Shown piece by piece: positions 13,215 through 46,223 of a stretch of DNA of 64,000 bases. A program made the position numbers and the translations under genes. The stretch is from Inediibacterium massiliense (GTDB lineage Bacteria; Bacillota; Clostridia; Peptostreptococcales; Thermotaleaceae), in the NCBI RefSeq assembly GCF_001282725.1, contig NZ_LN876584.1, positions 187,122 to 251,121 of the forward strand. The letters run 5' to 3'. How positions within the stretch are numbered: the first letter of the stretch is position 1; each line of letters begins with the position of its first letter. The notes beneath the pieces are model-generated. The model did not search any database, was not told the DNA's origin, and was given only the letters and a program-made list of their open reading frames with translations.

Positions 13215-14119
13215 TTATGCTATTCCCAAAGCAGCTTCATATACTGCTTGAGGAGTCATATAACCAATTGAACTATGAATCCTTTTTCTATTGTACCAAG
13301 ATTCAATATATTCAAAGACTGCTCTGCTAGCCATTTTGAAATCATAATATTTATGATGATGTATTTCTTCTTTCTTTAAAACAGAATGAAAAGATTCAAT
13401 ACATGCATTATCATAAGGATTACCCTTACGGCTAAAGGAGTGAATAATACCTTTTTCAGATAAATAATCTTTAAATAGTTGGCTGGTATATTGTGTCCCT
13501 AAATCACTATGAAGAAGAATGCCTTCTGTGTTTTTTACATTTAAACAAGCATTTTTAACTGCTTTTACAGCTAATTCTGCTGTCATGGATTTATCATAAG
13601 CATATCCTATAATCTTTTTGCTATAAATATCCATTACAGAAGCAAGATAAGTCCATCCATCTTTTATTGTATGTATATACGTTATATCTGTACACCATTT
13701 CTGATTGATTGTAGAGCTTTTAAAATCTTGATTCAATATGTTTTCTCGTTCTAAAATATCTACTTTTGAAGAATGATGACGATATTTTTTTACAACAATA
13801 GAATATAGGTTCATAGAAGCCATAAAACGTTGTACTCTCTTAAGACTTGCATAGTGACCTTTGACTTCTAGAATCTTTTGGATCTTAGGGGCTCCATAAC
13901 GTTTTTTGCTTTCTAAGTAAATTGCCTTGATCTTTGTTTTTAAATTTTGAGATTCTAATTGTCTATTTGAAGGTACTCTAAATAGAGCCTTATAGTAGGT
14001 ACTTCTAGAAAACTTTAAGACTTTGCATATAAGTTTTACGGTATATTTTTGTTGATTTGTATTGATAAATTTTATAATTTCATCTACTGTTTTCTTGCGA
14101 ATATGGCGGTAGCTTTTTT
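13215..14119 (-). CDS. IS3-family transposase OrfB (DDE integrase part)
   Basis: Catalytic half of the transposase. There is no suitable start before the OrfA overlap: the frame is open from about 14119 through 13823, where the first ATG lies, and encodes an HTH_21-like segment (VLKFSRSTYYKALFR, KRYGAPKIQ). The rve/DDE core has Asp in WCTDITYI, Asp in LLHSDLGTQYTS and Glu in NPYDNACIESFHS. It is therefore expected as an OrfAB fusion by -1 frameshifting at A-AAA-AAA-G (14113-14120 complement). Confidence 0.88.
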
Positions 14120-32777: not shown

Positions 32778-33491
32778 ATGTTTAAAACTATATATGTAGG
32801 AATTTATATTGTATTATATATGCTTGTTTTATTTCCTAAACTTTGGAAAATTAACAATCTAGAAAAAGAAGGAAAAATAGAAGAAATGAATCATCTTCTT
32901 CACAAAATAGCCTCTAAGTGGGGAAAAGCTACGGTAAATATTACAGGTTCGGAGATTTTAGTATCAGGTCTTGAAAATATTCCAGAAGGTCCTGTATTGT
33001 TTGTTGGAAATCATCAAGGATATTTTGATATTCCTATATTATATTCATCTATTCCAAAGCCTATATCCTTTGTTGCAAAAATAGAGCTTGGAAATATCCC
33101 TGTCTTTGGAGCATGGATGAGAAAACAAAGATGTATCTTTATTGATCGAGAAAACCCAAGACAATCTCTAAAAGCCATTCAAGAAGGAATCAAATCATTA
33201 AAAGGCGGTCATTCTATGGTTATTTTCCCAGAAGGAACAAGAAGTAAAAGTTCTCAAATGAATGAATTTAAAAAGGGAAGTTTAAAAATGGCTACCAAAG
33301 CAAAGGTTCCTATTGTTCCTATCACTATCGATGGTTCTTATAAGATATTAGAAGAAAACAAAAATAGAATCAAAGCATCTCAAGTAAAATTAACAATTTC
33401 AAAACCTATCTATACAGAAAATCTTTCTAAAGAAGAAGAAAATGAATTAAGTGAAAAAATATATAAAATTATTCAAAGTAATTTGAATTAA
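32778..33491 (+). CDS. plsC: 1-acyl-sn-glycerol-3-phosphate acyltransferase
   Basis: Makes phosphatidic acid in phospholipid synthesis. An N-terminal membrane helix (1-20) and the LPLAT motifs NHQGYFD (HX4D), GAWMRKQRCIFIDRE, FPEGTRSKS and VPIVPITIDGS are present. 237 residues, typical. AAGGAGAATC precedes the ATG. It is transcribed convergently to the tailocin operon and shares its terminator. Confidence 0.93.
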   Translation: MFKTIYVGIYIVLYMLVLFPKLWKINNLEKEGKIEEMNHLLHKIASKWGKATVNITGSEILVSGLENIPEGPVLFVGNHQGYFDIPILYSSIPKPISFVAKIELGNIPVFGAWMRKQRCIFIDRENPRQSLKAIQEGIKSLKGGHSMVIFPEGTRSKSSQMNEFKKGSLKMATKAKVPIVPITIDGSYKILEENKNRIKASQVKLTISKPIYTENLSKEEENELSEKIYKIIQSNLN

Positions 33492-33519
33492 AAAAAGCTA
33501 GGACTATCCTAGCTTTTTT
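33491..33519. terminator. Bidirectional terminator, plsC and tailocin operon
   Basis: AAAAAAGCTAGG / CCTAGCTTTTTT hairpin with A and T runs on both sides, between plsC and the 3' end of the lysis genes. Confidence 0.88.
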
Positions 33520-33562: not shown

Positions 33563-33949
33563 CTATCTCATATCCCAATAAGAATATCCTCTACTGTGTG
33601 GATGATCTCGTACATCTAAGTGAGTAAATTTCTTATACACTCCTATTCCTGTAAAACCCATCTTGGTTGCAATCTTTGCAATCTCTTCTGGAGAAAATCC
33701 GTTTACTCTAATATCTACAGCTTTTCCCAATACATGCTGACTTCTTGGAGAACCTCCTACTTTTTTATTATAAGAAGGGGAACGATACCCAGAATTGATG
33801 ATCATAGGTCTTCCTATTTTGTCTCTCATTTCTTGAAGGAGTCTTATAAGTCTGTAATCATATATAACTTCATTTTTTCCTTCTTTACATACAAACTCAG
33901 AGAGTTTGAAATTTTTAGATACATTCATATTTGATACAACATTAAACAT
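33563..33949 (-). CDS. Phage-type M15 D,D-/L,D-peptidase (tailocin lysin)
   Basis: 128-residue peptidase_M15_3 family protein, the kind used as an endolysin catalytic domain. Zinc-site residues are in SGYRSPSYNKKVGGSPRSQHVLGKAVDIRV (His and Asp) and THLDVRDH (His). There is no wall-binding domain or signal peptide, so release requires the adjacent holin. GGAGG seven bases before the ATG overlaps the holin stop area. Last gene of the tailocin operon: it would lyse the producer to free particles. Confidence 0.88.
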   Translation of the reverse strand: MFNVVSNMNVSKNFKLSEFVCKEGKNEVIYDYRLIRLLQEMRDKIGRPMIINSGYRSPSYNKKVGGSPRSQHVLGKAVDIRVNGFSPEEIAKIATKMGFTGIGVYKKFTHLDVRDHPHSRGYSYWDMR

Positions 33950-33951
33950 TT

Positions 33952-34362
33952 TTAGTCCTCCATTTCATTATTTTTTTCTTTCATTTTTTTGAGTACCTTT
34001 ACAATAAAAGCAGGCAAAGGAACTCCTAAGCCTGCAATATTTTCTGTAATGGATATACCTTCATTTGCTATATAAAAATAAATGGTCATGGTTCTAAAGA
34101 CAGGATTTTGTGATGCGACTGCCAAATCTAGCTGATGAGCAAGAATAATGACAATAAAAATAGCCGCCTTTTTAAGCAGCCCCTTGTGTCCCATCTCACT
34201 GGATATTTCTTTGTTTTTATATCCTTTCATTAAACCTGTTATATAATCCATTATAATCAATATTACTAAAATATGAATAATTCTATTCCACTCTCCTATC
34301 AATATGCTCATACCAGTCCCTAAACCTACTATGATCATATTTATACTATTTTTTATATCCAT
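33952..34362 (-). CDS. Phage holin (TcdE/Cph1-like family)
   Basis: About 136 residues with three to four membrane helices, including the family motif IIMDYITGLMKGYKNKEISSEMGHKGLLKKAA, followed by VPLPAFIVKVLKKMKEKNNE with a charged cytoplasmic tail. Forms membrane lesions at the end of particle assembly. ATG 34362 (MDIKNSI) suits AAAGGACG better than ATG 34368. Immediately upstream of the lysin. Confidence 0.9.
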   Translation of the reverse strand: MDIKNSINMIIVGLGTGMSILIGEWNRIIHILVILIIMDYITGLMKGYKNKEISSEMGHKGLLKKAAIFIVIILAHQLDLAVASQNPVFRTMTIYFYIANEGISITENIAGLGVPLPAFIVKVLKKMKEKNNEMED

Positions 34363-34460
34363 TTGCATCGTCCTTTATTAAATTTTTGATGATTCATCTG
34401 GTTGTTAAAAACATTATATTGTTTCTATTTTCTATATGAGGATTACTTCACATAATTTCC

Positions 34461-34610
34461 CTATATCGACTTACTTGTATTAAGAATCTCTTGTTTTTCT
34501 GCTTCTGTAAGTGCTGAATACTCTGAAATAATTTCTTCTGCTGTTCGATTTTCTTCTTTCATTCTTCTAGATATTACTCTAATAAAAATATTTTTTTTCC
34601 AAGTAGACAT
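34461..34610 (-). CDS. XkdX-like small tail-locus protein
   Basis: 49-residue ORF: MSTWKKNIFIRVISRRMKEE, then a helix with EEIISEYSALTEAEKQEIL. Its ATG overlaps the preceding stop by one base (TAATG). Position between fibre genes and holin, size and the final LTEAEKQEI pattern resemble XkdX-type proteins of PBSX-like particles. Function unknown. Confidence 0.6.
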   Translation of the reverse strand: MSTWKKNIFIRVISRRMKEENRTAEEIISEYSALTEAEKQEILNTSKSI

Positions 34611-34870
34611 TACATAGCACCCCCTATAAGACTCGCAATAGCATTTTCAACCTCTATAAGACTCTGTTTTGTTTTTTCAAATTCTGTTAATGGTGATGTT
34701 GATTGTAGTTCAAACTTTTCTTTCGACCACTCTCCATGTTCATATTTTCTCCATAAAAAATCTTCTGACATACTTTCTATCTGTATCATCCTTTTATTTC
34801 TAATTTCTCCACTTAAACATGAGATTCCAATGCAAACACAATTTTCATTTAATTGCGCGTAATAAAACAT
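34610..34870 (-). CDS. Fibre-associated small phage protein
   Basis: 86 residues of the kind often found directly after tail-fibre genes in clostridial phages: MFYYAQLNENCVCIGISCLSG, a WRKYEHGEWSKEKFE segment, and a C-terminal helix. No enzymatic motif. Could assist fibre assembly; this is inference from position. Coupled to the following XkdX-like gene. Confidence 0.6.
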   Translation of the reverse strand: MFYYAQLNENCVCIGISCLSGEIRNKRMIQIESMSEDFLWRKYEHGEWSKEKFELQSTSPLTEFEKTKQSLIEVENAIASLIGGAM

Positions 34871-34889
34871 AATTTATCCTCCTTCATTT

Positions 34890-36182
34890 TTAGATTAAAC
34901 TAACTACTTGCCAATCAAAATCATTTCCATCAGGGTACCTGTCTGTACTTTTAATCATTTCTATTTGAGTATTGCTATTAAATTTATATGCCATATCAAA
35001 TTGTATTGGTGGGATAAAACTTCTCTCTATATTTATAGGAGATATGTTTACCTTTCCATGAGAAGAACGACCATGTTGAACACTTATACCTCTTTTAAAT
35101 TCTAACACACTCCATCCTACAAGTGCATTTCCTGCTTGTGTTCCTTCCAATTCTAATTTATTGTGATAAAGTTTAACATTAATTCCTATTCCTAAATATG
35201 GACTCTTGTCTCTTTTACCACTAATTATTATGAATGATTTTGATAAATCTACTGAAGATATTGGAACAGTTACTCTACTTCTATAAACATAAGTAGAACC
35301 ACTTTGTATATTTTTTAATTCTACACCTCCAATAAAGTTTCCATTAATACCAAAAATATTTACTCCCTGTTTTATATTTTCAGGTCTTAAATTGGATTCT
35401 CCTTTTACTATACCAGAACCATTATGATACCCTTTTGGTATTATTTGATTAAAAGTTGTAGGGTTAATAGTAAATGCATTGTGATTAGGCATAACACCTG
35501 TTTGCTTTTTCCCACCTTGATAAAAAGTTTTTCCATTTAAAACATCATTTGCCCTTGCTGTCGCATCTTTAGAAATGTCTTTTATTTTATTTGCTAATAC
35601 ACTAAATACCTCGCTTCCACTTGCATTTTGTCCCATGCCAGTAATAGCGGTAGCGATTTCTGTTTTTCCATTACTGGCAGATTGAAAAAGTTGATCGTAA
35701 TCATCTTGTGTTAGTATTCTTTTCCACGAACTCCATGAATAATTTCCCCCCCATTGAGGATTTGTTCTTCCATACCGTATAAAAATATCAGAAGTACCAT
35801 AAACAAAAGCTGTTTGTTTTTTTGTTCCAAATTTGTTCCCCTTATCCCTAGTCAGTGTAACAATATAACAAAAACTATTTGGAACTGGAGAGTTTGCATG
35901 CTTTGTTACTATAAAGCTCCTTGTGGTATTATTAGGATCATCATAATCATTACTAAATCTATAGATTGGATTTATGGTATCTGTTTCAAAATAAGTAGCT
36001 ATACCATTTAACTGTTTATCTACACCATTTAATTTTTCTTTTAATTGTTTATTTTCACCTTGGTGCATAATAATTGCATCTTCTACAGTTCTTCCATTTT
36101 TCATAAAAACTACATCAGATTTAGTTTGAGGATAATATACATTTCCATTGTGATCCTCTATTCTTATCTTATTTTCAGCCAT
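34890..36182 (-). CDS. Tail fibre / receptor-binding protein with knob-like domain
   Basis: 430 residues. An N-terminal attachment part (IRIEDHNGNVYYPQT, shared with related fibres), a helical coil (GENKQLKEKLNGVDKQLNG), a pyocin-knob-like module (about 75-155, ending YSWSSWKRILTQDDYDQLF), then a segment common in phage fibres (TARANDVLNGKTFYQGGKKQTG, LPKGYHNG-like IPKGYHNGSGIVKG) and a beta-rich C-terminus. Predicted to set the killing spectrum by binding the target cell surface. Follows the collagen-like gene. Confidence 0.82.
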   Translation of the reverse strand: MAENKIRIEDHNGNVYYPQTKSDVVFMKNGRTVEDAIIMHQGENKQLKEKLNGVDKQLNGIATYFETDTINPIYRFSNDYDDPNNTTRSFIVTKHANSPVPNSFCYIVTLTRDKGNKFGTKKQTAFVYGTSDIFIRYGRTNPQWGGNYSWSSWKRILTQDDYDQLFQSASNGKTEIATAITGMGQNASGSEVFSVLANKIKDISKDATARANDVLNGKTFYQGGKKQTGVMPNHNAFTINPTTFNQIIPKGYHNGSGIVKGESNLRPENIKQGVNIFGINGNFIGGVELKNIQSGSTYVYRSRVTVPISSVDLSKSFIIISGKRDKSPYLGIGINVKLYHNKLELEGTQAGNALVGWSVLEFKRGISVQHGRSSHGKVNISPINIERSFIPPIQFDMAYKFNSNTQIEMIKSTDRYPDGNDFDWQVVSLI

Positions 36183-36194
36183 TTTTCATCCTCC

Positions 36195-36728
36195 TTACAT
36201 CTTTTTAAAAAACAATTTTACTTCTTTTGCATTTGATACAGCTGTGCCAAATTTAACATGATCGCCAGGATTTCCTTTGTCTCCTTTAGGTCCTTGTGGT
36301 CCTCTCTCCCCTGTGGCTCCTTTTGCTCCAGTATCCCCCTTAGGTCCTTGAATGCCTTGATCTCCCTTATCTCCTTTGGGACCTTGTGGTCCTCTCTCCC
36401 CTGTAGCTCCTTTTGCTCCAGTATCCCCCTTCGGTCCTTGAATTCCTTGATCTCCCTTATCTCCTTTGGGGCCTTGTGGTCCTCTCTCTCCTGTGGCTCC
36501 TTTTGCTCCAGTATCCCCCTTAGGTCCTTGATCTCCTTTATCTCCTTTCGGACCTTGTGATCCAGTTGCTCCTTTGGGACCAGTTAACTTGCCAGCATTT
36601 AATTTCTGTTGAAATGTTTCACCATCGTCAAAAGTTACACAATCTGCACCAGTCAAAACATCTACTTCCTCCAAAATCGCCCCTGTCTTTTCATCTAACA
36701 ATTGTACTCTTACTTTACTTTTAGCCAT
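36195..36728 (-). CDS. Collagen-like tail fibre protein
   Basis: 177 residues: an N-terminal phage-like attachment domain (1-48, KVRVQLLDEKTGAILEEVD), then about 105 residues of uninterrupted Gly-X-Y triplets (QGPKGDKGDQGIQGPKGDTG type) predicted to form a triple helix, and a short C-terminal cap. The triplets come as three near-identical 30-residue units (90-bp DNA repeats). Likely a trimeric shaft joining baseplate to the next fibre gene; copy number could change by slippage. Confidence 0.85.
   Translation of the reverse strand: MAKSKVRVQLLDEKTGAILEEVDVLTGADCVTFDDGETFQQKLNAGKLTGPKGATGSQGPKGDKGDQGPKGDTGAKGATGERGPQGPKGDKGDQGIQGPKGDTGAKGATGERGPQGPKGDKGDQGIQGPKGDTGAKGATGERGPQGPKGDKGNPGDHVKFGTAVSNAKEVKLFFKKM
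36281..36571 (-). repeat. 90-bp tandem repeats in the collagen-like gene
   Basis: Units begin at about 36281, 36371 and 36461 with a partial fourth at 36542; copies differ at only a few third positions. Inside the coding region, so repeat loss or gain stays in frame. Confidence 0.85.
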
Positions 36729-36745
36729 TTATATCTCCTCCTATT

Positions 36746-37024
36746 TTATATTTTTTTAATCCCCATGGTGGGACTAACCTTTATATTTTCTACTACTTGT
36801 GTAGGTACTTGATCAGTGATAAAAAAATAAAATGTTCCTTTTTTTCTTTCTCCTACAGGCACATTTTTTTCAGCCACTATTATTTCTGTTTTATCTTCTA
36901 TTTTATTTTGTAGCTCTGTAATTTCATTATCTATTTTATCCATGTTCTCATTGATCACTTTAATATCTGCTGTTTCATGATCTAAAGGTTTTTTTAACTT
37001 TATGTTTCTAGTTAGCTCTGGCAT
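36746..37024 (-). CDS. Small tail protein upstream of the fibre genes
   Basis: 92 residues beginning MPELTRNIKLKKPLDHETAD, with a coiled helix (INENMDKIDNEITELQNKIED) and a beta-rich end. The start resembles the N-terminal tail-attachment region of some phage fibres. ATG 37024 has AAGGTGAT upstream and overlaps the YmfQ-like gene end by 13 bases; the longer frame to 37105 is unlikely. Precise role unknown. Confidence 0.65.
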   Translation of the reverse strand: MPELTRNIKLKKPLDHETADIKVINENMDKIDNEITELQNKIEDKTEIIVAEKNVPVGERKKGTFYFFITDQVPTQVVENIKVSPTMGIKKI

Positions 37025-37560
37025 CCTATCACCTTCCTTGTTCTCACTTCTTTCCAATTCATCTTCTTTACCTTTCCCCAAGTTGTCTGTCTCATTTGTA
37101 ACCATGTAATATAAAGAAATTCATATAATATTTCTAGATGTGCAGGTTTAATTTCTTCAATAGCATTTTTTAAATCCTCTATATTCGGAGGCACTCCATA
37201 AACACTAGTAAATATAATATTGATCCTGCCATCAAAAGTAACCTCCACATCTCCATTTGTATAAGCATCTGCTACTAATTTGATAAGATTTCTATCTACT
37301 TTGCCTGTTCCTCTCCATTTGGACTTTATAGTGCTCCTTCTATCTTCATAGGTTTTATCTCTATCTGTTTGAATTCCAAGCTCTTTTTCATATATATCTA
37401 GTGTCCAAGTAGCTGTCTCTATAAATAATTGTCTTTCTAAATCCTTTAAATCTAATGTGATTTGATCTAATTCTTTTCCTTGTACTTTCATGAGTTCATG
37501 AAATATCTCTGATTTTTGCTCATAAAAGGGTAAATATTTTAACATTCTATTTTTAAGCAA
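37012..37560 (-). CDS. YmfQ-like tail protein (DUF2313)
   Basis: 182 residues of the DUF2313/YmfQ family, which follows baseplate J in Mu-like and PBSX-like phages. Evidence: LKYLPFYEQKSEIFHELMKVQGKELDQ and the DRDKTYEDRRSTIKSKWRGTG segment. Probably part of the baseplate wedge or fibre connector (gpI-like). Overlaps its neighbours on both sides. Confidence 0.85.
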   Translation of the reverse strand: MLKNRMLKYLPFYEQKSEIFHELMKVQGKELDQITLDLKDLERQLFIETATWTLDIYEKELGIQTDRDKTYEDRRSTIKSKWRGTGKVDRNLIKLVADAYTNGDVEVTFDGRINIIFTSVYGVPPNIEDLKNAIEEIKPAHLEILYEFLYITWLQMRQTTWGKVKKMNWKEVRTRKVIGCQS

Positions 37561-38623
37561 TGATAACCCCTCCTAGCACTGGAACTGCCTCTTCATGAAT
37601 CATGATATTTTTCTTTTCATTATTGATAGTCAAATCAGAAAAATCCAGTATCCCTTTTGAATCTAATACAATACTTGCAATCTTATTGTAACTAACCTTG
37701 TTTTCTCTAAAGGCAATTTCTTTTAAATATAATTTTATATTTTCCTCTACATCTTTTTGAATCACTTCTTGTAAAATAGCAGTATCTTTCTCTGTAAGAT
37801 GAAAGGATATATTTAAAAGTACAGGCTCTGCACTTACTACTTTACAAAAGGCTCCAATAGGAGCTTTGCCTTCCCCTAATCCTTTGGATCCAGGATCAAT
37901 ATATTCTTGTACTTCTTTAGCAAGCTCTATATTTGGTTTTTTCTCTTTATCAATAACTACTACCTTTACCGTATTCGGCTGATTATTAGGTAGAGGTATA
38001 ACCCTTGCATCTCCTACTCCTGTTACTTCCTTTGCCCAATTGAGATAATGGTATTTATTTCCTGATGTGGCAGGAGTTCGAATACGCTCATAGTATCTTT
38101 GTAAAAGCTCTTCATCACTTTCTGCATCATAACCATTTGTAAACTCTTTTGGATTTATTACCTTTTTAATACCATTAAGAGTCACAGGAAAATATCTAAT
38201 GGCTTCTGCTGGAACGTTCCCTATGATTCCATATACTTCACACTTTACCCATACCTCTACTTGTCCTTTATCATCTATAGTTTTATCTTCTTGTACGATA
38301 AAATCTACTGTATCACTAGAGACTTTATCATTTATACAAATCTTCGCTCCTTTTTTTCCTATAATTGTTACATAGCCTGTAGCTTGAGTGGCTAGTTTCC
38401 TTTTGATTCCTGTTTTCTCATATACCCTTTGCTCTAATTCTGTTTCTTTTAAGTTTTTGATTTCTAATTTATCTTCTAAATTTTTCATATCCTTTTTCAT
38501 ATACTCTAGCTCAATGGCAACAGGCTTTAGGGCATCATAAAAAAAAGACCCTTCTGATCGATCATAAATATTAGATACATTTTTAATCATTCTATCTTGT
38601 ATCACTTCTTTATCCTCTAGCAT
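37553..38623 (-). CDS. Baseplate J-like protein (XkdT-like)
   Basis: 356-residue baseplate wedge protein: GSFFYDALKPVAIELEYMKKDM at the N-terminus, a central jelly-roll-like region with ATGYVTIIGKKGAKI, the GYDAESDEELLQRYYERIRTPATSGNKYHYLNWA signature of gp47/J proteins, and GVGDARVIPL. Contractile-tail specific, which supports an R-type particle. It overlaps the XkdS-like gene by 14 bases. Confidence 0.92.
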   Translation of the reverse strand: MLEDKEVIQDRMIKNVSNIYDRSEGSFFYDALKPVAIELEYMKKDMKNLEDKLEIKNLKETELEQRVYEKTGIKRKLATQATGYVTIIGKKGAKICINDKVSSDTVDFIVQEDKTIDDKGQVEVWVKCEVYGIIGNVPAEAIRYFPVTLNGIKKVINPKEFTNGYDAESDEELLQRYYERIRTPATSGNKYHYLNWAKEVTGVGDARVIPLPNNQPNTVKVVVIDKEKKPNIELAKEVQEYIDPGSKGLGEGKAPIGAFCKVVSAEPVLLNISFHLTEKDTAILQEVIQKDVEENIKLYLKEIAFRENKVSYNKIASIVLDSKGILDFSDLTINNEKKNIMIHEEAVPVLGGVIIA

Positions 38624-39065
38624 AAGATTTCACCTCCTTATTAAAAGTTTCTTCATTTATTAAATTCACCTTAAAAGATAAATTTATATAAGATGCAACC
38701 TTCTTGATTTCAAAATGATAAACAGAAGCAATCATAGGATGTTTCATAAGAGATTGACTGATTTCTCTTTTTAATTCTGCTTCTATAAAATCCTTTGGAA
38801 GATTTTTTCCTATAATAAGATCTTCTACAATCACGCCATATTCATTTTTATCTTTTCTTTGATAGATTTTATATTTATATTTTTCTGTTCTTAATACTTT
38901 ATCAATCCATCCCTTAATTGCGTCTACACCTAATACCTCTACTAATCTCCCATCCTTTATGACAAACTCCCCTTTATCAAAGTCAAATAAAAAAGACTTA
39001 CCCATCCTTGGCAAATCCTTTGGCTTCTCTTCTTTCATTTTTAAATTTGCTACTTGTGGAAACAT
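38610..39065 (-). CDS. XkdS-like baseplate protein (DUF2634)
   Basis: 151 residues of the DUF2634 family: SFLFDFDKGEFVIKDGRLVEVLGVDAIKGWIDKVLRTEKYKY matches the gp25/XkdS type of small wedge protein. Part of the XkdQ-R-S-T baseplate block; stop and start overlap neighbours. Confidence 0.87.
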   Translation of the reverse strand: MFPQVANLKMKEEKPKDLPRMGKSFLFDFDKGEFVIKDGRLVEVLGVDAIKGWIDKVLRTEKYKYKIYQRKDKNEYGVIVEDLIIGKNLPKDFIEAELKREISQSLMKHPMIASVYHFEIKKVASYINLSFKVNLINEETFNKEVKSYARG

Positions 39066-39478
39066 TACAAACTCACCCCCTTGTCTAGTAGAAAGTAGGT
39101 TTGTTCGTCTGTAGTAGGAATCAATATTACTTGATCTCCTTTTTTCAAGGTATCTGTATATTTGAATGTTCCTTTCATACTGACATTTCCTTCTACATTT
39201 CCATTTACTACTTCATAGGTAGTAGGAACGTTAGATTTTAATGTAATTGATCCACTTTCTCCACTAGTGCTTTCGTCTCCTTTAATCTCAAATTGTCTTT
39301 CATAATCCTCTAAAACATGAGCTCCTATAATCAAATGCTCTTTCGTCAATATAATCTTATCCCCTAAATATACTTGAATATTAGGAGGGGGACTAATGAT
39401 CGTTCCTACTTGTGGCCCCAAGTAAGGTCTATTGTCCCTTTCTTTAAATAAACTTGCCAATTCACTAATTCCATCCAT
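39065..39478 (-). CDS. XkdR-like protein (DUF2577)
   Basis: About 137 residues of the DUF2577 family, MDGISELASLFKERDNRPYLGPQVGTIISPPPN, with an OB-like beta domain and KKGDQVILIPTTDEQTYFLLDKG. ATG 39478 overlaps the XkdQ stop as TAATG and has GGGGGTGATG upstream, so the longer reading to 39562 is rejected. Likely a spike/hub component. Confidence 0.87.
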   Translation of the reverse strand: MDGISELASLFKERDNRPYLGPQVGTIISPPPNIQVYLGDKIILTKEHLIIGAHVLEDYERQFEIKGDESTSGESGSITLKSNVPTTYEVVNGNVEGNVSMKGTFKYTDTLKKGDQVILIPTTDEQTYFLLDKGVSL

Positions 39479-40446
39479 TACATCACCCCCAATCCTAATT
39501 GCATTTTGTGGATTCCATTTTGAACAGTATGGGTTACATCCTTGATTAAATATTTCCCACAAATGCCTGTGACTGGTTCTTGGATTGTAATGGTTCTTCC
39601 TGCCCTTACTTTATCATCACCTAACATTTCTACACTATTTTCTTCAAATATTTTTCCTAATTCCTTTAACATATTGTTTGCAATATTTTTTGCCTGAATC
39701 TTATCCTTTTTTTCTATACTGACTACATCTTGAAGGAGTCCATATTCTCGAATCAACTTTTTATCTCCTTCTGTGATGATCAAATGATCATCTGATATAA
39801 CTTGGATACTATTTTTCATCTCTTCTATAGATCTTTTGCGACTGGGATTAGAAATAGCACTACTTACATCATAAGGCTGTATATTTTGTGCCAATTGAAA
39901 GGTTCCTTGTACCTCTAGCTCTTGTTGTTTTTCTATATACAATTTTCCTGCTCTCATTTCCATCCTATACTTGGTTTGTGTACTTTTATGGGCAATATCT
40001 AAAATATCTTCAATAATTTCACTTACAGCTTTATCATTATATATTTTATGGATAATCGTAGGAATAGGAGCTATAGATCCAATAGAAATGGAGAAATCAT
40101 TTAAAATCGTTTCTATAGCTTTCTTTCCTGTGGTTTTATTAAACTGATAAACGGCTTTACTTTTATTCAAATAAAAAGCACAATCAAAGCAGCTATAATT
40201 GATCTTGCCTCTTCCATTTTTTTCTTCAGATACTACAATTCCTCTACATATTTCATCTTTGTTTTTTAATATTATCAAACTTCCTAGCTGTACTGGATTG
40301 ATTGGAAAATATCGATCATCATTAAAAGCAATATCAAAGTCAAGCTGTTGTCCTAGCTCACTGATATTGCTTCTCCACTGAATATTTCCAACCAAAGGGG
40401 TAATATCTGTCTGTATATTATTTTTTATACTCAATAGCTGATACAT
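39478..40446 (-). CDS. XkdQ-like tail hub protein
   Basis: 322-residue protein of the XkdQ/YqbQ (late control gpD-like) group forming the baseplate hub. It shows NIQWRSNISELGQQLDFDIAF, GSLIILKNKDEICRGIVVSEEK, RAGRTITIQEPVTGICGKYLIKDVTHTV. No peptidoglycan hydrolase domain is fused. Confidence 0.88.
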   Translation of the reverse strand: MYQLLSIKNNIQTDITPLVGNIQWRSNISELGQQLDFDIAFNDDRYFPINPVQLGSLIILKNKDEICRGIVVSEEKNGRGKINYSCFDCAFYLNKSKAVYQFNKTTGKKAIETILNDFSISIGSIAPIPTIIHKIYNDKAVSEIIEDILDIAHKSTQTKYRMEMRAGKLYIEKQQELEVQGTFQLAQNIQPYDVSSAISNPSRKRSIEEMKNSIQVISDDHLIITEGDKKLIREYGLLQDVVSIEKKDKIQAKNIANNMLKELGKIFEENSVEMLGDDKVRAGRTITIQEPVTGICGKYLIKDVTHTVQNGIHKMQLGLGVM

Positions 40447-40447
40447 A

Positions 40448-40876
40448 CTACACCACCTTTTGTTCTAGTTTGATAAATTTAAACTCATTTAGAGTAAGAG
40501 TATAGTAAATATCTCCTGTTCCATCTTGTTGTCCATATTCAAAACTTTCTATTGTACAAGGCATATTCACTAATTCATTAGAAGCATCTGTAATAACCAA
40601 TCGGATAGGTACTCTTCTGCTCTTCCATTCCTCTAGAATTTTTATATATTCCCACCCTTTATATTGTCTATCTCTTAAAAAAGGATAGTCTTTGTTTGGA
40701 AAAAATGACTGGATAGATATACTCTTTAAAGAATCCATACCAATAAGTTTGATTTCTCCTTGATTGATAGTATCAAAAGTTTCATTCTTCATTCCTGACT
40801 GTATCTTAAATTCTTTAGGCAATACAGGAAGTCTAATGACTTGCTCTCGATTATTAATAGAAAGAAATATATCCAT
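40448..40876 (-). CDS. XkdP-like protein lacking LysM
   Basis: 142 residues resembling the N-terminal part of PBSX XkdP: LPVLPKEFKIQSGMKNETFDTINQGEIKLIGMDSLKSISIQSFFP. The C-terminal LysM domain usual in XkdP is absent, so the hub lacks this wall-binding module. ATG 40876 follows GGGAGGTGG; the upstream extension to 40897 is rejected. Confidence 0.82.
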   Translation of the reverse strand: MDIFLSINNREQVIRLPVLPKEFKIQSGMKNETFDTINQGEIKLIGMDSLKSISIQSFFPNKDYPFLRDRQYKGWEYIKILEEWKSRRVPIRLVITDASNELVNMPCTIESFEYGQQDGTGDIYYTLTLNEFKFIKLEQKVV

Positions 40877-40889
40877 ATACCCACCTCCC

Positions 40890-42224
40890 TTATGCATATC
40901 TATAGTTATTTGCCATTGATTGTTTTAATCTTGGAACCAACTCATTTAAAATCTCTGTAGTTGACTTGTTTGTACCGCTAATATTAATAGTGTATTTGTT
41001 TTGGTTTTTAATAGAATGATCTACTCGAGTACCCATGATCTTTGTTCCTCCGTTGGCTACTTTATTAGCTTTTGGAGTAATTTTATTATTCTTATAAAGC
41101 TTATAAACATTGTTTCCAGATACCTTTGTTGATGATTTGATGTGGTTTTTTTGTTGAATTCTACTTTTACTACGTCCTTTATTGGGTAACCTTCTCATCT
41201 TCCCACCATTTTTTCCTGATTTTTTAATGGTAGATAAGGATCTTTTAGGTGCAAAGATATTTTTTACTGTATCTATCATCTTTCCTGTACCCTTATCTAA
41301 TTTTTTTTGTATATGTTTTGGAGCAGCTTCATAAAAAATGCTCCCTGCAAAGTTTACAGCAGAACCTACCGTAGATAATACCGTTCCTACTCCTGGTAAG
41401 ACTTGCGTTGCATCTAAAGCCATATCTGTTGCTGCAAGAGCTGATAAAAATTTACTATCTCCTTTTGCAATAGTCTTAATATTTTCTGCGTATCCTAAAA
41501 CAGGGAAAAATGATTTTTTAAATGTTTTTCCTATACTTAGTAGTTTTGGAAACTTTGTAGATGTTTTGGATAAAATAGTTGTATATTTCCCATGAATCAT
41601 CTCTTTTGTAATCTTACCTAAAGTCTTTGCTTGAGATGTATAATTTTTATTTCTCAATCTCCCAATCATATTTACTGATTTTTCAACTAATATTTTACTT
41701 GTTTTTCCTATCTCATTTTTTAACTTAGTATATCTTCCTGATGCCATCTGTTTTGTAATCTTTGCTATGGTCTTCGCTTGTTTATTCAAATCTTTCCCAC
41801 TAAATTCTCCTATTTTTTTCATTACTTTATAAGACATATCCCCTAATTGATTTTTATATCTACTAGTTACTTTAAAAATTGCCTTTTTACCTACTTCACC
41901 TATTTTGTCCTTTGTATCATCATGAGTTGCTATATTTTTCATATGCTCAGTAAAATCCTGATTTGTGTCATAAAAATTGACTCTCTCTTTTATTTTCTGC
42001 CCTATGTGATCTAAAGAAGGGTCAATATATTTTTTCGCAAGCTGTGATTTCATTTCATTTAGCTTTTTAATAGGCCCTAGATTAGATATTAATTTATCAA
42101 TAGGCTCACTGATAAAATCTGTGATTTCATCTTTTATAAAAGACTTAAATTTTTCTGCTTGTTTTTTGGCAAATTCACCATGATAATTATCGTCAACTCT
42201 CTCAGTTAAGCTTCCATCGCTCAT
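40890..42224 (-). CDS. Tail tape-measure protein
   Basis: 444 residues, mostly helical and lysine-rich, with repeated segments (SRYKNQLGDMSYKVMKKIGE, AKTIAKITKQMASGRYTKLK and AKTLGKITKEMIHGKYTTI), a central hydrophobic region (ALDATQVLPGVGTVLSTVGSAVNFAGS) and a C-terminal KSTTEILNELVPRLKQSMAN typical of tape-measure ends. It is short compared with phage tape measures, predicting a tail of order 60-70 nm by the usual 1.5 angstrom per residue rule. The gene starts 28 bases after the direct repeat of element C. AAAGGTGGTG precedes the ATG. Confidence 0.8.
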   Translation of the reverse strand: MSDGSLTERVDDNYHGEFAKKQAEKFKSFIKDEITDFISEPIDKLISNLGPIKKLNEMKSQLAKKYIDPSLDHIGQKIKERVNFYDTNQDFTEHMKNIATHDDTKDKIGEVGKKAIFKVTSRYKNQLGDMSYKVMKKIGEFSGKDLNKQAKTIAKITKQMASGRYTKLKNEIGKTSKILVEKSVNMIGRLRNKNYTSQAKTLGKITKEMIHGKYTTILSKTSTKFPKLLSIGKTFKKSFFPVLGYAENIKTIAKGDSKFLSALAATDMALDATQVLPGVGTVLSTVGSAVNFAGSIFYEAAPKHIQKKLDKGTGKMIDTVKNIFAPKRSLSTIKKSGKNGGKMRRLPNKGRSKSRIQQKNHIKSSTKVSGNNVYKLYKNNKITPKANKVANGGTKIMGTRVDHSIKNQNKYTINISGTNKSTTEILNELVPRLKQSMANNYRYA

Positions 42225-42252
42225 TCATTCACCACCTTTTTTTTACAAATAA

Positions 42253-42508
42253 AAAAGATCCCTCTATATGATACCTTTCAAATTGTAGTTAAAATGTTTA
42301 ATGACAAAGTCATAAAAATAAGGAACATTTATTGAAAATTTGTGAAAATATAGAATAAGGGAGAAAATTGATAGCATTACACTGTTTGAGCGTAGCGAGT
42401 TTGTAATGCTATTTTCGACCGTTTCTATATATTTTCCAAATTCGAAAATTAGTGACGTTTTTTATGACTTTGCCATAAAATCAAAAGGCACCTATTCAAG
42501 GTACCTTT
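42253..42508. repeat. Palindromic dispersed element, copy C, inside the tailocin operon
   Basis: Element at about 42279-42482 (204 bp) with AAAGTCATAAAAAT and TTTTTTATGACTTT arms and a central hairpin AGCATTACA / TGTAATGCT around TGAGCGTAGCGAG. The flanking direct repeats are degenerate: 42253-42278 and 42483-42508 match at 18 of 26 positions. It lies between the chaperone extension and the tape-measure gene. The right repeat forms AAAGGCACCT / AGGTACCTTT, a terminator-like hairpin. Confidence 0.72.
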
Positions 42509-42686
42509 ATTCTTCTATTTCTCTATTCATCATCTCTTCAATTTCTTCCATTTCCTTTTCATAAAATGCCATCAAAAGAATCAATTCCCCTCTTGGCATA
42601 TTGTAGATCACAGACGGTCTAATTCCTTTGGTTTTCCAAAAATAATAAATCATTTGAGTCAAACCATCTGTGTCAATTAGTTTTTT
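42507..42686 (-). CDS. -1 frameshift extension of the tail assembly chaperone (GT-like)
   Basis: At the end of the upstream chaperone gene the zero-frame codons GTA AAA AAC TAA contain the canonical slippery heptamer A-AAA-AAC (complement of 42680-42686). Slipping back one base enters a 57-codon open frame LIDTDGLTQMIYYFWKTKGI... ending in a Glu-rich tail at 42507, giving a predicted 190-residue fusion. This reproduces the conserved G/GT frameshift organisation of tailed phages just before the tape-measure gene. The extension has an internal ATG but no ribosome site. Confidence 0.8.
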   Translation of the reverse strand, partial: KKLIDTDGLTQMIYYFWKTKGIRPSVIYNMPRGELILLMAFYEKEMEEIEEMMNREIEE

Positions 42687-43078
42687 ACTTCTTCTACAGC
42701 TCCACCATCAAACCCGCTTAATTCTCCAATCATATTGTATAAAGTCAGAAGCTCTCCAGGAAGAAGAAGCTTTCTTACTAAATCCTTTGGTGTATATACA
42801 TGAAATTTATCCATTAATTCCTTTGTTTTAAACCTTGGGTTTTTCACTCCTTCTATAACAGTCATAAGCTGTAATTCCCCAATGTTTATATTTTCTTGAT
42901 TTTCATCCATTGCCATTTCTTGAATTTCCTCCATTTTATCAGGAGTTAATGCTTCCACTTGAAAAATTACTTTTTCTCCTGTCATAGAAGATAACCTTTT
43001 TATTTCTACTTCTTTACTAGGCTTTTTTAATTTCTTTTCATCTAATTGAAGCAACAAATCTAATGTATTCATATTCAT
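42677..43078 (-). CDS. Tail assembly chaperone (XkdN-like)
   Basis: 133 residues, acidic, between tube and tape-measure genes: LLLQLDEKKLKKPSKEVEIKRLSS, FQVEALTPDKMEEIQEMAMDE and ENINIGELQLMTVIEGVKNPRF match the XkdN/TAC-like family. Acts in cytosol to load the tube onto the tape measure. Ends at a slippery site for the GT-like extension. Confidence 0.86.
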   Translation of the reverse strand: MNMNTLDLLLQLDEKKLKKPSKEVEIKRLSSMTGEKVIFQVEALTPDKMEEIQEMAMDENQENINIGELQLMTVIEGVKNPRFKTKELMDKFHVYTPKDLVRKLLLPGELLTLYNMIGELSGFDGGAVEEVKN

Positions 43079-43083
43079 CCTCC

Positions 43084-43530
43084 TTATTCTGGCTGAATCA
43101 TATCAGCAAAATCATAGTCTGTAAATGTAAATGGACATTCTACTTTTCCTAATGCTTTTGTCTCAAAATTCATAAGAGTTAAATCATCAAAGCTTACTTC
43201 TTTGAGTACAACTCTTTCTGATTGACCATTTACTGTATCTGGATCAGCTAATTTTGAAACAATAGTAAACCTTACATCTTTTCCTTTTTTAATCATATCT
43301 CCTAGCTTGATTGCCATCCTAGAGTTTACTTTGTGCATCTTTAGTGTTCCTTTTCCTTCCCATCCTGTAATCTTTGTATCCTTTGCCAAAACGCCACACA
43401 TATTTACATCTTCTTTTTTCAATGTAATCTTTGCCTCAAGTCCTGTTAACTCACTGACCTTATCTCCATCTAACCAAATTTCTCCCCATGTACCATTAAT
43501 CACTCTATTTCCAGCTATTTTATTTGCCAT
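43084..43530 (-). CDS. Tail tube protein (XkdM-like)
   Basis: 148 residues: INGTWGEIWLDGDKVSELTGLEAKITLKKEDVNMCG and GKGTLKMHKVNSRM fit the XkdM tube family that polymerises into the inner tube of contractile tails. It lies 12 bases after the sheath gene, the normal contractile-tail order. Confidence 0.9.
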   Translation of the reverse strand: MANKIAGNRVINGTWGEIWLDGDKVSELTGLEAKITLKKEDVNMCGVLAKDTKITGWEGKGTLKMHKVNSRMAIKLGDMIKKGKDVRFTIVSKLADPDTVNGQSERVVLKEVSFDDLTLMNFETKALGKVECPFTFTDYDFADMIQPE

Positions 43531-43542
43531 ATTGATTCCCCC

Positions 43543-44598
43543 TTACATAAATATTTCCATTGTTAAGTCTTCCATTGCATCTAAAAACTTTACTTTTGCC
43601 TTAATAAATACTTCACTTCCAGTATTGTACTCTTTGATTTCTTGTTCCTTTAATGCTTCTACCTCTACACCTTTTTTCATGAGATATAATCTTTGCCCAA
43701 GCATATCAATCTCGGCCTTGCTATCATAATCTGGGTCTAATACATCTATTCTTTCTAATTCCTCAAAATAAGCATTCAGTGCAGCTAAAAACAATACTTT
43801 ATTATCATAGGAATTTACAACTTTTCCTACATAAGATCCATCAAAAGTATCATGAATATCATCTCTCATCAGATCTACTGCATCTACAATCTTAATTTTC
43901 TTAAATTCTTCACCCTTTGTAGCTGTAGTAGTAGTCAAAGAATTGACTCCCCTGCCTATTTTGATTTTTTCTCCATCATGGATAAGAATTAATTTTCCAG
44001 CATCAATATCTTTATCTGGATTTTCTGATTCTGTAATGCTTTCTAGTTCATTAAGTGCATAATAAGTAGAGCTTCTTGTAAATGGAAGTCCTGCAAGCAC
44101 TCCAGCAATCCTACAAGTATATTGACTTGCGCTATAAGTCATATCTCCTACCTTTATACCTTCTGTTGCAAAATTGATAATTCCTTCATGATCTGCCTCT
44201 ACATTGGGAAGTACTGCTTTAAATGTCTTTTTATTGTTTTGTCTTTGTTCTTTAATCCATGAAACAATATTTTGAACTGCTTCTTGTGAAATATCTGGAA
44301 TAGAAAGATAATTCCACTTTTTATTTTTCAATCTTTTTAAAGCTACTGCATAATCTTCTTCCTTTCCAATTCTTTCAATAATAATTTTGCTAGGTATTCC
44401 CATGAGCGTTTTTTCAATGTAGTCTCTGTTCTCTTTTGTCCAGTTGTCTTTTGCTACTTCATCGATAGATCTATATTCTACTGATTCTAAATCCACTTTA
44501 TCCTCTTTTAAAATAAGTGCTACAATTCCTCTAGCACTTCTTTGAATTGCAGTTGTTCCTTGTGTTTTAAAGTTTATTAATATTTGTGGTAAACCCAT
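43543..44598 (-). CDS. Contractile tail sheath protein (XkdK-like)
   Basis: 351-residue sheath monomer: the N-terminus MGLPQILINFKTQGTTAIQRSARGIVALILKE, a middle SQYTCRIAGVLAGLPFTRSSTYYALNELE, a GVNSLTTT turn and a C-terminal DMLGQRLYLMKKGVEVE region characteristic of XkdK/FI-like sheaths. Its presence shows an R-type (contractile) rather than F-type particle. About 80-90 residues shorter than PBSX XkdK, as in diffocin-like clusters. Confidence 0.92.
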   Translation of the reverse strand: MGLPQILINFKTQGTTAIQRSARGIVALILKEDKVDLESVEYRSIDEVAKDNWTKENRDYIEKTLMGIPSKIIIERIGKEEDYAVALKRLKNKKWNYLSIPDISQEAVQNIVSWIKEQRQNNKKTFKAVLPNVEADHEGIINFATEGIKVGDMTYSASQYTCRIAGVLAGLPFTRSSTYYALNELESITESENPDKDIDAGKLILIHDGEKIKIGRGVNSLTTTTATKGEEFKKIKIVDAVDLMRDDIHDTFDGSYVGKVVNSYDNKVLFLAALNAYFEELERIDVLDPDYDSKAEIDMLGQRLYLMKKGVEVEALKEQEIKEYNTGSEVFIKAKVKFLDAMEDLTMEIFM

Positions 44599-45038
44599 TA
44601 AATCTCCTCCTTTATTCTTAAATCCTTCATCATTTCATAATTTTTATAACCATAGACCTTCATCTGATCTATTGTATCTATAAAAGCTATTTCAAAAGAA
44701 AACACCAATACTTTATCTACCATTTTTACTGTAGTTTCTTGAATAGTAAATTTCCTATCCTCTACTTCTAAAACACAAGAAAAAATATCCTGAAGTTTTT
44801 CTAATATCTCAATATTTTCTTTGATGGTTTGGCTTTTTGAAAAGTACTCAATCTTTATTTTGATTTTTTTATTTTGATGATATCTGCTTTCTAACGTAGT
44901 AGATACAGGTAAAACTTCAATAAAAAATGCAGGTCTATCCAATGATTCTCCCTGCATGGTTTCATAGAAATAACTCGTATCAAAATGACTCTTTAATATT
45001 TTTAATACAGTCTCTTGAATTTTTAATAATGTAATCAT
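44598..45038 (-). CDS. Tail terminator-like protein (DUF6838 type)
   Basis: About 146 residues: an N-terminal helix (LLKIQETVLKILKSHFDTSYFYE), PAFFIEVLPVSTTLESRYHQNKKIKIKIEYF, alpha/beta fold of tail terminators or minor tail proteins encoded before the sheath. The start was set to the ATG at 45038, which overlaps the upstream TGA (TGATG) with AAGGAG five bases before. Caps the sheath/tube end (inference). Confidence 0.7.
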   Translation of the reverse strand: MITLLKIQETVLKILKSHFDTSYFYETMQGESLDRPAFFIEVLPVSTTLESRYHQNKKIKIKIEYFSKSQTIKENIEILEKLQDIFSCVLEVEDRKFTIQETTVKMVDKVLVFSFEIAFIDTIDQMKVYGYKNYEMMKDLRIKEEI

Positions 45039-45367
45039 CATCTCTCCTTCCACAAGCTCCTTCGTTCCATAAGTTTTTCCTCTATTAAATGATTTAATAA
45101 ATGGCTTATCTCCATGAAATCCATTAATGTTTTTTCATTAGAGTCTATAGACTGATTGGTTTCTTTGTGTAGTTCTTTCTCCATTGCTTCTAATTTTTTC
45201 TTAAGTTTTAATACATTTTCTTTATAAGCATCCCTTTGTTGGATCACTTGATTGAGTCTAGTTCTTGGAACAAATTGATTATTATTTAAGAGTATTTTTT
45301 GATTTTTTGTTTTTTCCTTTACTTCTTTGTATAAACTTTCTCCTAGGATTTCCTTTAACTCTTTCAT
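45038..45367 (-). CDS. GP20 scaffold-like protein fragment
   Basis: 109 residues starting MKELKEILGESLYKEVKEKT, with LLNNNQFVPRTRLNQVIQQRDAYKENVLKLKKKLE, which resembles the start of phage minor structural GP20/scaffolding proteins. A capsid scaffold has no obvious use in a head-less cluster, so it is either a relic or recruited to tail assembly. It is the first structural gene after promoter module P2. AGGAG lies nine bases before the ATG. Confidence 0.6.
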   Translation of the reverse strand: MKELKEILGESLYKEVKEKTKNQKILLNNNQFVPRTRLNQVIQQRDAYKENVLKLKKKLEAMEKELHKETNQSIDSNEKTLMDFMEISHLLNHLIEEKLMERRSLWKER

Positions 45368-45429
45368 TAAAATCATCTCCTTTTATTCCTTTACGTGTTT
45401 TACGTGTAACGCCACGATTCATTCTTCTC

Positions 45430-45488
45430 ATTTTAAATTATAATAGATTCATTTTTATTATATCGGCCTAATTTCGGCACTTTTTCGG
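45430..45488 (-). promoter_or_regulatory. Promoter module P2 of the tailocin structural operon
   Basis: A 59-nt block with a 24-nt upstream motif CCGA-A-AAAGTGCC-N8-GCC (complement of 45465-45488), a 20-base gap and ATTATAATTTAAAAT (complement of 45430-45444). Identical architecture to module P1 at 46100-46158. It overlaps the last codons of the regulator gene and points at the scaffold-like gene. No -35 consensus is present, which suggests an activator or alternative sigma. Confidence 0.75.
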
Positions 45489-46001
45489 TATATCCAATGC
45501 AGATATCTCTAATAAAATACTGTTTTTGAGTATTTTATAGATTTTAGTTAAAGCCTCATTTCTTATTTCTCTACATTGTCTTTCTTCTATATTTACTTCA
45601 AAAGTAATATACCTCCAAATTTTCTTATCTACATACTTCATCTTGATAATTTTTTTCTCTAAATCTGTAAGGCTTTCTACTGCATTGTGAATTCTTCTTA
45701 AAAATCTTTCCATATGCCTTTTTTCAAATTCAAGTAAATCAATCATTTCTTCTATTTCTAAATCCTTCAATACCTGTGTCTCTGTTTTAGAAAAAATTTG
45801 ATTGCTCCTTATAAATTCTTCATAATTGATACCCTTTAAACTTAAATATTGCATATCTTTTAAATCTCCGATCTGAAGTTCTATTTCTTTTATTTTTGCT
45901 TCATATTGTTTTAAGTTTTTAAGAGTATTTTCCACTCCCTTCATACTTATTTTTTTGTTACGCTTTTGTATTTTTTCTTTTTCTAAACTTTGTGTATACA
46001 T
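45468..46001 (-). CDS. Sigma-region-4-like activator of the tailocin (Xpf/ArpU-type)
   Basis: 177 residues. The N-terminal two thirds are coiled and charged. The C-terminal part has SLTDLEKKIIKMKYVDKKI and VNIEERQCREIRNEALTKIY, the pattern of sigma-70 region 4.2 helix-turn-helix seen in late-gene activators such as Xpf of PBSX and ArpU. No region 2 is visible, so it probably acts as an activator or partial sigma. It is transcribed toward the tail genes, its 3' end contains promoter module P2, and P1 and an SOS promoter lie upstream. Confidence 0.78.
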   Translation of the reverse strand: MYTQSLEKEKIQKRNKKISMKGVENTLKNLKQYEAKIKEIELQIGDLKDMQYLSLKGINYEEFIRSNQIFSKTETQVLKDLEIEEMIDLLEFEKRHMERFLRRIHNAVESLTDLEKKIIKMKYVDKKIWRYITFEVNIEERQCREIRNEALTKIYKILKNSILLEISALDIPKKCRN

Positions 46002-46063
46002 AAACCTTCACCACCATAAATAGTTTATTTTTTGATATCTGTAATAAAAATACATTTATTGAT

Positions 46064-46093
46064 TTTTATTTAATTTATTGATTTTTTTGTATA
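46064..46093. repeat. Short direct repeat in the regulator leader
   Basis: TTTATTGATTTTT occurs twice in about 30 bases between promoter P1 and the regulator gene. It may be a binding site or simply AT-rich sequence. Confidence 0.35.
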
Positions 46094-46099
46094 TCTCTT

Positions 46100-46158
46100 A
46101 TTTTAAAGTATAATATATATTTTTTACCAATTTAGGCATACTTGTGGCACTTTATCGG
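46100..46158 (-). promoter_or_regulatory. Promoter module P1 upstream of the tailocin regulator
   Basis: Complement of 46135-46158 reads CCGA-T-AAAGTGCC-N8-GCC; 20 bases later comes ATTATACTTTAAAAT (complement of 46100-46114). Total length and internal spacing equal those of P2. Its direction would give a transcript of the regulator gene, implying positive autoregulation if the regulator recognises the motif. Confidence 0.72.
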
Positions 46159-46192
46159 AACTTTTCCTCCAAATATTTTAGATATATAGAAA

Positions 46193-46223
46193 ATTATACC
46201 ACATTTTTTCGAACATGTGTTCG
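46193..46223 (-). promoter_or_regulatory. LexA (SOS) box over an extended -10 promoter
   Basis: CGAACATGTGTTCG at 46210-46223 is a perfect Gram-positive LexA operator (CGAAC-N4-GTTCG). On the minus strand it is followed by TGGTATAAT (extended -10, TATAAT at 46193-46198); the box covers the -35 position. Transcription would pass through P1 into the regulator gene, so tailocin expression should respond to DNA damage. Confidence 0.85.

Follow-up and report, generated by a model that had tools for sequence, protein, structure and literature searches.

The 64,000-nucleotide stretch of Inediibacterium massiliense DNA analysed here (contig NZ_LN876584.1, positions 187,122 to 251,121; hereafter the window) carries, at 33563-46001 on the minus strand, a phage-tail-like gene unit. 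It was concluded, with a probability of roughly 0.86, that this unit encodes a domesticated, maintained, headless R-type tailocin of the diffocin type. Gene content, homology, selection, conservation of promoters and of a frameshift site, and the architecture of the baseplate cassettes, all read at the level of sequence, point to this conclusion. The family search showed that the open reading frames (ORFs) follow one another, in the order of transcription, as a RinA-like activator, a short scaffold-like protein, tail terminator/collar, sheath, tube, XkdN-type chaperone, tape measure candidate, tube-end protein, YqbQ-type hub, DUF2577 spike, sheath initiator, baseplate J, Gp48, three fibre-related genes, two small ORFs, holin and M15 lysin.

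Gene content and maintenance of the unit

A preliminary description of this DNA had placed sheath, tube, chaperone, tape measure, hub, baseplate J, fibres, holin and M15 lysin in a single minus-strand unit with intact structural frames, its own regulator and its own terminator. Matches to protein families and PHROGs bore this out, the tape measure being assigned by position; all of the named parts are intact and lie on the minus strand, the regulator is a RinA-like activator (phrog_36, with a weak RinA-family match), and a terminator-like hairpin lies at about 33489-33519. The chaperone proved to be two ORFs joined by a −1 frameshift. The protein comparison proposed in that description gave sequence matches for eight window proteins to diffocin proteins of solved structure (CD1362-1364, CD1367-1368 and CD1370-1372), and the tube matched XkdM of PBSX at E 2.9e-20. 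A whole-genome search found this sheath gene only. The baseplate set comprises tube tail, hub, spike, sheath initiator, Tri1 and Tri2, the spike being recognized by fold only, from a low-confidence model. No sequence match was found between the spike and diffocin CD1369; its AlphaFold2 (AF2) model, built from nine relatives (mean pLDDT 54.7), had as its top PDB match diffocin 8v3w chain C (107 aa, E 3.7e-4), the sole PDB match under E 0.001, and its identity is accepted with caution.

The 3′ end of the chaperone gene reads GTA AAA AAC TAA, and the open −1 frame after the heptamer encodes the TAC-C partner. This partner begins without a start codon and is conserved in most of the 11 loci compared. 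The A AAA AAC site corresponds to the standard frameshift of tail chaperones. The tape measure was assigned from its position and length because it has no family match. In diffocin, a tape measure of 817 residues spans 138.8 nm and 32 sheath rings (PMC11329794). By scaling, the 444-residue candidate predicts a tail of ~75 nm with 17 rings, about half the length of diffocin, and the tails of the relatives are predicted at 66-102 nm, both being extrapolations.

It had also been claimed that the unit lacks head and integration genes. All ORFs of 33563-46001 were accounted for, and together with the family searches this showed no terminase, portal, major capsid, integrase or head-tail connector ORF, so that the claim stands for these genes but not for a truncated relic of a capsid-scaffolding protein (45038-45376). 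The window protein alone matched PF06810 at E 0.0012, below the cut-off, and in an aligned set with its full-length relatives the best member matched at E 4.7e-29. The full-length protein (169-178 residues) is present in tailocin loci of Geosporobacter, Anaerosolibacter, Anaerovirgula and one further genome (L033:14029-14562, L035:14436-14963, L097:16133-16639, L099:4228-4755), and it is truncated C-terminally in Anaerophilus and in the Marinisporobacter genus. Inspection by eye showed no head genes around the Geosporobacter and Anaerosolibacter units, whose ORFs lay outside the family search.

The window genome and Anaerophilus nitritogenes, the sole congener compared, were treated as two Anaerophilus species. 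Against A. nitritogenes, dN/dS was 0.07-0.36 for all 16 tailocin genes tested, the same range as for flanking core genes (0.05-0.34). These values show purifying selection on the tailocin genes and agree with the earlier view of a maintained rather than decaying element. Core proteins of the two species are 83-98% identical and the tape measures 70%, whereas the fibre genes are unshared apart from the N-terminal 42 residues of the small fibre-linked protein; the 430-aa fibre candidate (34890-36182) was not found in A. nitritogenes. Synonymous divergence (dS) was 0.13-0.31 for most structural genes, 0.39-0.45 for collar, tape measure and activator, and 0.29-0.54 for the flanks. Since dS is lower in most structural genes (37012-45053) than in the flanks, gene exchange between lineages or strong codon constraint is possible, and some horizontal exchange at the locus is likely.

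The locus is origin-proximal, between a jag-mnmE-mnmG-rsmG-noc-parA-parB side and an ssb-gdpP-rplI-dnaB-purA side, the names of flanking genes being read from ORFs with a family search on some flanks only. The placement check suggested earlier showed that the unit occupies the same chromosomal site, between a TspO-TPR-yyaC block and plsC, in the window, A. nitritogenes and two genomes of the Marinisporobacter genus (G006 and G007). The proposal of vertical inheritance is mostly supported, since three further genomes from two genera share the exact site, but the fibre genes are exchanged and dS is lower in most structural genes. Two further genomes of the Marinisporobacter genus are without the unit, their site holding a transposon, an intron or other genes. 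Across the family (L054, L055, L056, L057, L058, L061) the content of the yyaC-plsC interval varies: it may hold the tailocin, transposons together with introns, genes for peptide maturation along with ABC genes, aro genes, or just one gene.

A 168-bp palindromic element separates the chaperone partner from the tape measure gene. In the window's own genome the search, with 186 first-look candidates, listed 42 matches, namely 40 scored copies (89-100% identity) and two weak opposite-strand self-matches; about 40 or more copies of roughly 92% identity are present, several of them flanked by terminator-like hairpin halves. The element occupies the same spot in A. nitritogenes, and G006 and G007 have only a hairpin there. 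It matched no Rfam family and is possibly a repeat resembling a miniature inverted-repeat transposable element (MITE) or a terminator-associated repeat. Elsewhere in the window, a transposase-like ORF (DDE/rve type, by eye) is present at 13215-13823.

Table 1. Features of the tailocin locus, in the order of transcription (window coordinates)
Feature	Position	Strand	Basis
Tailocin unit	33563-46001	minus	12.4 kb, continuous, operon-like
LexA-type box CGAACACATGTTCG	46210-46223	minus	conserved in G001, G006, G007, G010
−10 TATAAT of SOS-controlled promoter	46193-46198	minus	read from sequence
Activated promoter motif of activator gene (autoregulation)	46107-46158	minus	motif search
RinA-like transcriptional activator, 177 aa	45468-46001	minus	phrog_36 E 1.4e-20; TIGR01636 weak
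Activated promoter motif of structural operon	45437-45488	minus	motif search
Truncated capsid-scaffolding protein relic, 112 aa	45038-45376	minus	N-terminal part of Phage_scaffold PF06810; dN/dS 0.12
Tail terminator/collar	44598-45053	minus	PF20765; diffocin CD1362 E 5.8e-10
Sheath	43543-44598	minus	PF04984 and PF17482; diffocin CD1363 E 1.2e-80
Tube	43084-43530	minus	PF09393; diffocin CD1364 E 1.9e-41
Tail assembly chaperone, N part (TAC-N, XkdN-like)	42677-43078	minus	PF08890 E 1.4e-26
A AAA AAC slippery heptamer directly 5′ of TAC-N stop	42680-42686	minus	kept in 10/11 loci
Chaperone partner (TAC-C), 56 codons, read by −1 frameshift	42507-42677	minus	phrog_2722; dN/dS 0.07
Terminator-like hairpin 3′ of chaperone partner	42483-42508	minus	read from sequence
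High-copy 168-bp palindromic element	42305-42472		own-genome search
Tape measure candidate, 444 aa	40890-42224	minus	position; C-terminus conserved in relatives; helix-rich; length scaling
Tube-end protein	40448-40897	minus	diffocin CD1367 E 4.8e-22
Hub, 322 aa (YqbQ-type)	39478-40446	minus	PF24032; partial alignment to diffocin CD1368
Spike (DUF2577), 138 aa	39065-39481	minus	PF10844; fold match to diffocin
Sheath initiator	38610-39065	minus	PF10934; diffocin CD1370 E 1.7e-8
Baseplate J / Tri2 wedge, J2 type in first-cassette position	37553-38623	minus	PF04865 E 7e-65; diffocin CD1371 E 6e-38
Gp48 / Tri1 wedge, second-cassette type	37012-37560	minus	PF10076 E 1.6e-31; diffocin CD1372 E 1.7e-14
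Small fibre-linked protein (XkdV-like N-terminus), 92 aa	36746-37024	minus	comparison of relatives' loci
Collagen-like (GXY) fibre segment, 177 aa	36195-36728	minus	PF01391 E 1e-19; 54% to G006
Tail fibre / receptor-binding candidate, 430 aa	34890-36182	minus	PHROG tail-fibre match E 8e-8
ORF of 86 aa, possible fibre accessory	34610-34870	minus	relatives in other tailocin loci, 55% in G009 contig 2
Small ORF, 49 aa	34461-34610	minus	no family match (Pfam, PHROGs)
Holin, 138 aa	33952-34368	minus	PF05105 E 4e-37
M15 peptidase lysin, 128 aa	33563-33949	minus	PF08291 E 6.7e-26; dN/dS 0.16
Terminator-like hairpin and T run 3′ of lysin, common to convergent plsC	33489-33519	minus	read from sequence

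Predicted control circuit and alternative explanations

The LexA-type box at 46210-46223 is the sole exact CGAAC-N4-GTTCG site in the genome. One exact site genome-wide is about what chance would give, so that the weight of the box lies in its place and its conservation: it stands at a similar distance 5′ of TATAAT in five genomes (the window genome, G001, G006, G007 and Geosporobacter G010). The genome's own lexA has three GAAC-N4-GTTY boxes upstream. The tailocin thus has the features of SOS (LexA) control, on sequence evidence only, and the data are consistent with a bacteriocin role, which the LexA box strengthens.

The motif search showed that CCGAAAAAGTGCCGNAAGTATGCC-N22-TATACT precedes both the activator and the structural genes. 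Exactly two sites occur in the genome, both at the tailocin, and none with the pattern reversed; seven tailocin loci contain 13 sites, compared to 0 in shuffled sequence. No relative of the activator was found among 50,697 phage records. The activator would bind this motif. Read most simply, the SOS response would trigger the activator, which would then stimulate its own expression and drive the structural operon.

Particle formation, induction, assembly, release, killing and particle length are predicted from these elements as follows. DNA damage would inactivate LexA and free the promoter at about 46193-46223, and the RinA-like activator would be made. The activator would then act on two promoters, the second one of its own gene (46107-46158) and that of the structural operon (45437-45488), whose products would build a contractile tail with a length set by the tape measure, a collagen-like fibre and a variable receptor-binding fibre. 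The M15 lysin, encoded beside the holin, looks like a release enzyme, and the two proteins may lyse the producer to release the particles. Binding to a related cell would trigger contraction of the sheath, drive the tube through the envelope and cause death by depolarization.

Several points weigh against a functional tailocin. Particles, induction and the killing of rivals are as yet predictions from the genes, and no immunity gene was identified. The tape measure candidate matched no known tape measure in Pfam, PHROGs, NCBIfam or PDB. The hub is without the wall-degrading half of CD1368 (lytic transglycosylase and endopeptidase NlpC/P60), and wall penetration must therefore work otherwise. 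In addition, the palindromic element and the terminator-like hairpin at 42483-42508 lie within the operon; the element seems not to silence it, because the genes beyond it remain under selection.

The best surviving alternative, a cryptic prophage remnant in slow decay whose genes are intact by chance and yield no functional particle, would explain the truncated scaffold relic as a loss from a phage ancestor, and it would also fit the repeat element and hairpin in the operon and a cassette content smaller than in relatives. However, dN/dS was at most 0.36 in 16 of 16 genes tested, including those downstream of the element common to both Anaerophilus species, the promoters and the frameshift site are conserved, and the site is identical across genera, which makes decay very improbable. 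Just below it in likelihood stands a contractile injection system whose task would be effector delivery or some other function, such as signalling or intracellular action, instead of killing rivals by puncture. Some contractile particles, those of the extracellular contractile injection system (eCIS) families, carry effectors, and the hub here lacks hydrolases. The ORFs of the unit, though, include no effector-like gene and no AAA+ ATPase gene typical of eCIS (Afp/PVC/MAC type), its holin-lysin release cassette and SOS control match bacteriocins, and its fibres vary between close species.

A search of the genome for helper head genes with PF03354, PF04860 and PF05133 found two terminase loci on C14. 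The first (TerL and portal, 1043-1046 kb) is part of a separate, sheathless prophage that has a tape measure and tail genes of its own. The second, in a prophage remnant at about 683-689 kb (L103:8851-14892), consists of a terminase large subunit and a 191-aa portal fragment (about 683-685 kb), beyond which lie ORFs for a transposase and a group II intron reverse transcriptase. The other head genes of the genome thus belong to other elements, which answers the objection, foreseen in the preliminary description, that head genes elsewhere might form part of the unit. A tail module completed by the heads of another prophage, as a helper-dependent phage or gene-transfer agent, is the least probable explanation of all: although terminase and portal genes do exist elsewhere, these loci are unrelated or broken, the promoter motif of the activator occurs at the tailocin and at neither of them, and the unit has no portal or head-tail connector.

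Baseplate cassettes in related loci

Comparison of related loci showed that six genomes carry two J-Gp48-fibre cassettes, here termed J1 (first) and J2 (second), within 4-13 kb: G006, G007, Geosporobacter G010, Anaerosolibacter G003, Anaerovirgula L064 and G042. In G006, G007 and G042 the J2 cassette is the downstream one; in G010, G003 and L064 it is found upstream, behind the activator. A further genome, L072, has two J-Gp48 sets, yet its second J falls outside the J2 clade. Nine genomes gave a strong J2 match: the six dual-cassette genomes, both members of the Anaerophilus pair, and G067, whose locus is interrupted by the end of a contig. Upstream of the dual-cassette tailocin of G042, L099:14-3530 contains ORFs resembling (by eye) a baseplate and fibre set of a non-contractile phage, perhaps a third specificity module.

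The window J shares 68% identity with the second J of G006 and falls within a J2 clade of seven (support 100/98), and the window Gp48 is 63% identical to copy 2 of G006 compared to 40% for copy 1. The J2 set of the window nevertheless occupies the J1 position, immediately 3′ of the sheath initiator. At the junction, the upstream sequence matches the initiator-J1 side and the downstream sequence the J2 side, the meeting point being the shared Shine-Dalgarno block AGGAGGTGAA; the final codons of the sheath initiator now come from the J2 leader (the Shine-Dalgarno region) and the J2 start, which together form a junction scar. Such a junction is what deletion of the first cassette through a short shared sequence would leave. 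The Anaerophilus lineage would accordingly be read as having deleted its first wedge-fibre cassette and kept the second, fused directly to the sheath initiator. The collagen-like fibre (36195-36728) contains a near-perfect 90-nt repeat unit, and its length is likely to vary among strains.

Since J2 occurs alone in Anaerophilus and J1 alone in other relatives, either cassette seems to suffice by itself, and the dual-cassette loci would encode alternative baseplates. A broader proposal, tentative and held at somewhat less than even odds, is that the family combines one chassis with two baseplates: at least six genomes would have two complete and distinct wedge-fibre sets, each sufficient alone, so that one cell could target two classes by swapping the whole baseplate rim and not the fibre alone, and the capsid-scaffolding protein kept in headless loci would have taken on a new job in tail assembly. 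Among the papers searched, none described duplicated baseplate wedge sets in tailocins, only multiple, exchanged or inverted fibres, which is weak evidence of novelty.

The analysis adds to the preliminary description the LexA box with its promoter, the locus-specific promoter motif that the RinA-like activator would recognize, the frameshift at A AAA AAC, the reduced length of the tape measure, the absence of hydrolases from the hub, the scaffold relic and the replacement of the baseplate cassette. Several of the features of this tailocin are without description for diffocin in the literature examined.

Comparison with known contractile particles

Gram-positive R-type tailocins are known in detail mainly from Clostridioides difficile. 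The window tailocin adds to this class a compact, largely vertically kept member from environmental anaerobes; its control circuit can be read from the sequence, and its tail is predicted to be about half as long. It resembles diffocin (C. difficile, CD1362-CD1372 plus fibres) in having the counterparts from collar to Tri1 in the same order and in being headless; diffocin is SOS-induced, and the window tailocin has a LexA box (diffocin headless and SOS-induced: PMC11329794, PMC6088184). It differs in its shorter tape measure (444 compared to 817 residues), in a hub without lytic transglycosylase and NlpC/P60, in a wedge-fibre cassette of the second type, in its truncated scaffold relic and in its size of 12.4 kb. 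Its 322-aa hub aligns only to residues 7-309 of the 581 of CD1368, the hydrolase part being absent, and the window tailocin is therefore classed as being of the diffocin type rather than as a diffocin.

PBSX of Bacillus subtilis is likewise phage-derived and non-propagating, and shares with the unit, besides the XkdM tube, an XkdN-type chaperone and related XkdP, XkdQ, XkdS and XkdT proteins. PBSX possesses portal and capsid genes, and host DNA is packaged in the heads that it forms. The window unit has no head genes and so is not a defective phage of the PBSX type. PDB entries 9g8s and 9gb2, which we take to represent the S-layer-penetrating C. difficile phage with a solved tail (presumably that of PMC11948020), give matches to the sheath initiator, J and Gp48 that equal or exceed those of diffocin, and their XkdQ-related hub chain (316 aa) is short too, but they come from a complete phage.

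The C. beijerinckii tailocins and clostocin O are also contractile clostridial tailocins with holin and lysin. Their loci are about 38-46 kb long, with an integrase or resolvase, and reportedly retain capsid genes (PMC10538166), whereas the window unit has no capsid genes. What the capsid-scaffold gene does in the headless loci that keep it is a testable question. Carotovoricin and pseudomonad tailocins have several or invertible fibre genes, one tail being combined with alternative specificity parts (PMC13195805, PMC10598620). These systems multiply, exchange or invert fibres, whereas the relatives of the window tailocin duplicate J and Gp48 along with the fibres, and the J1-only, J2-only and dual relatives make the re-aiming of a contractile particle by exchange of whole wedge and fibre sets testable.

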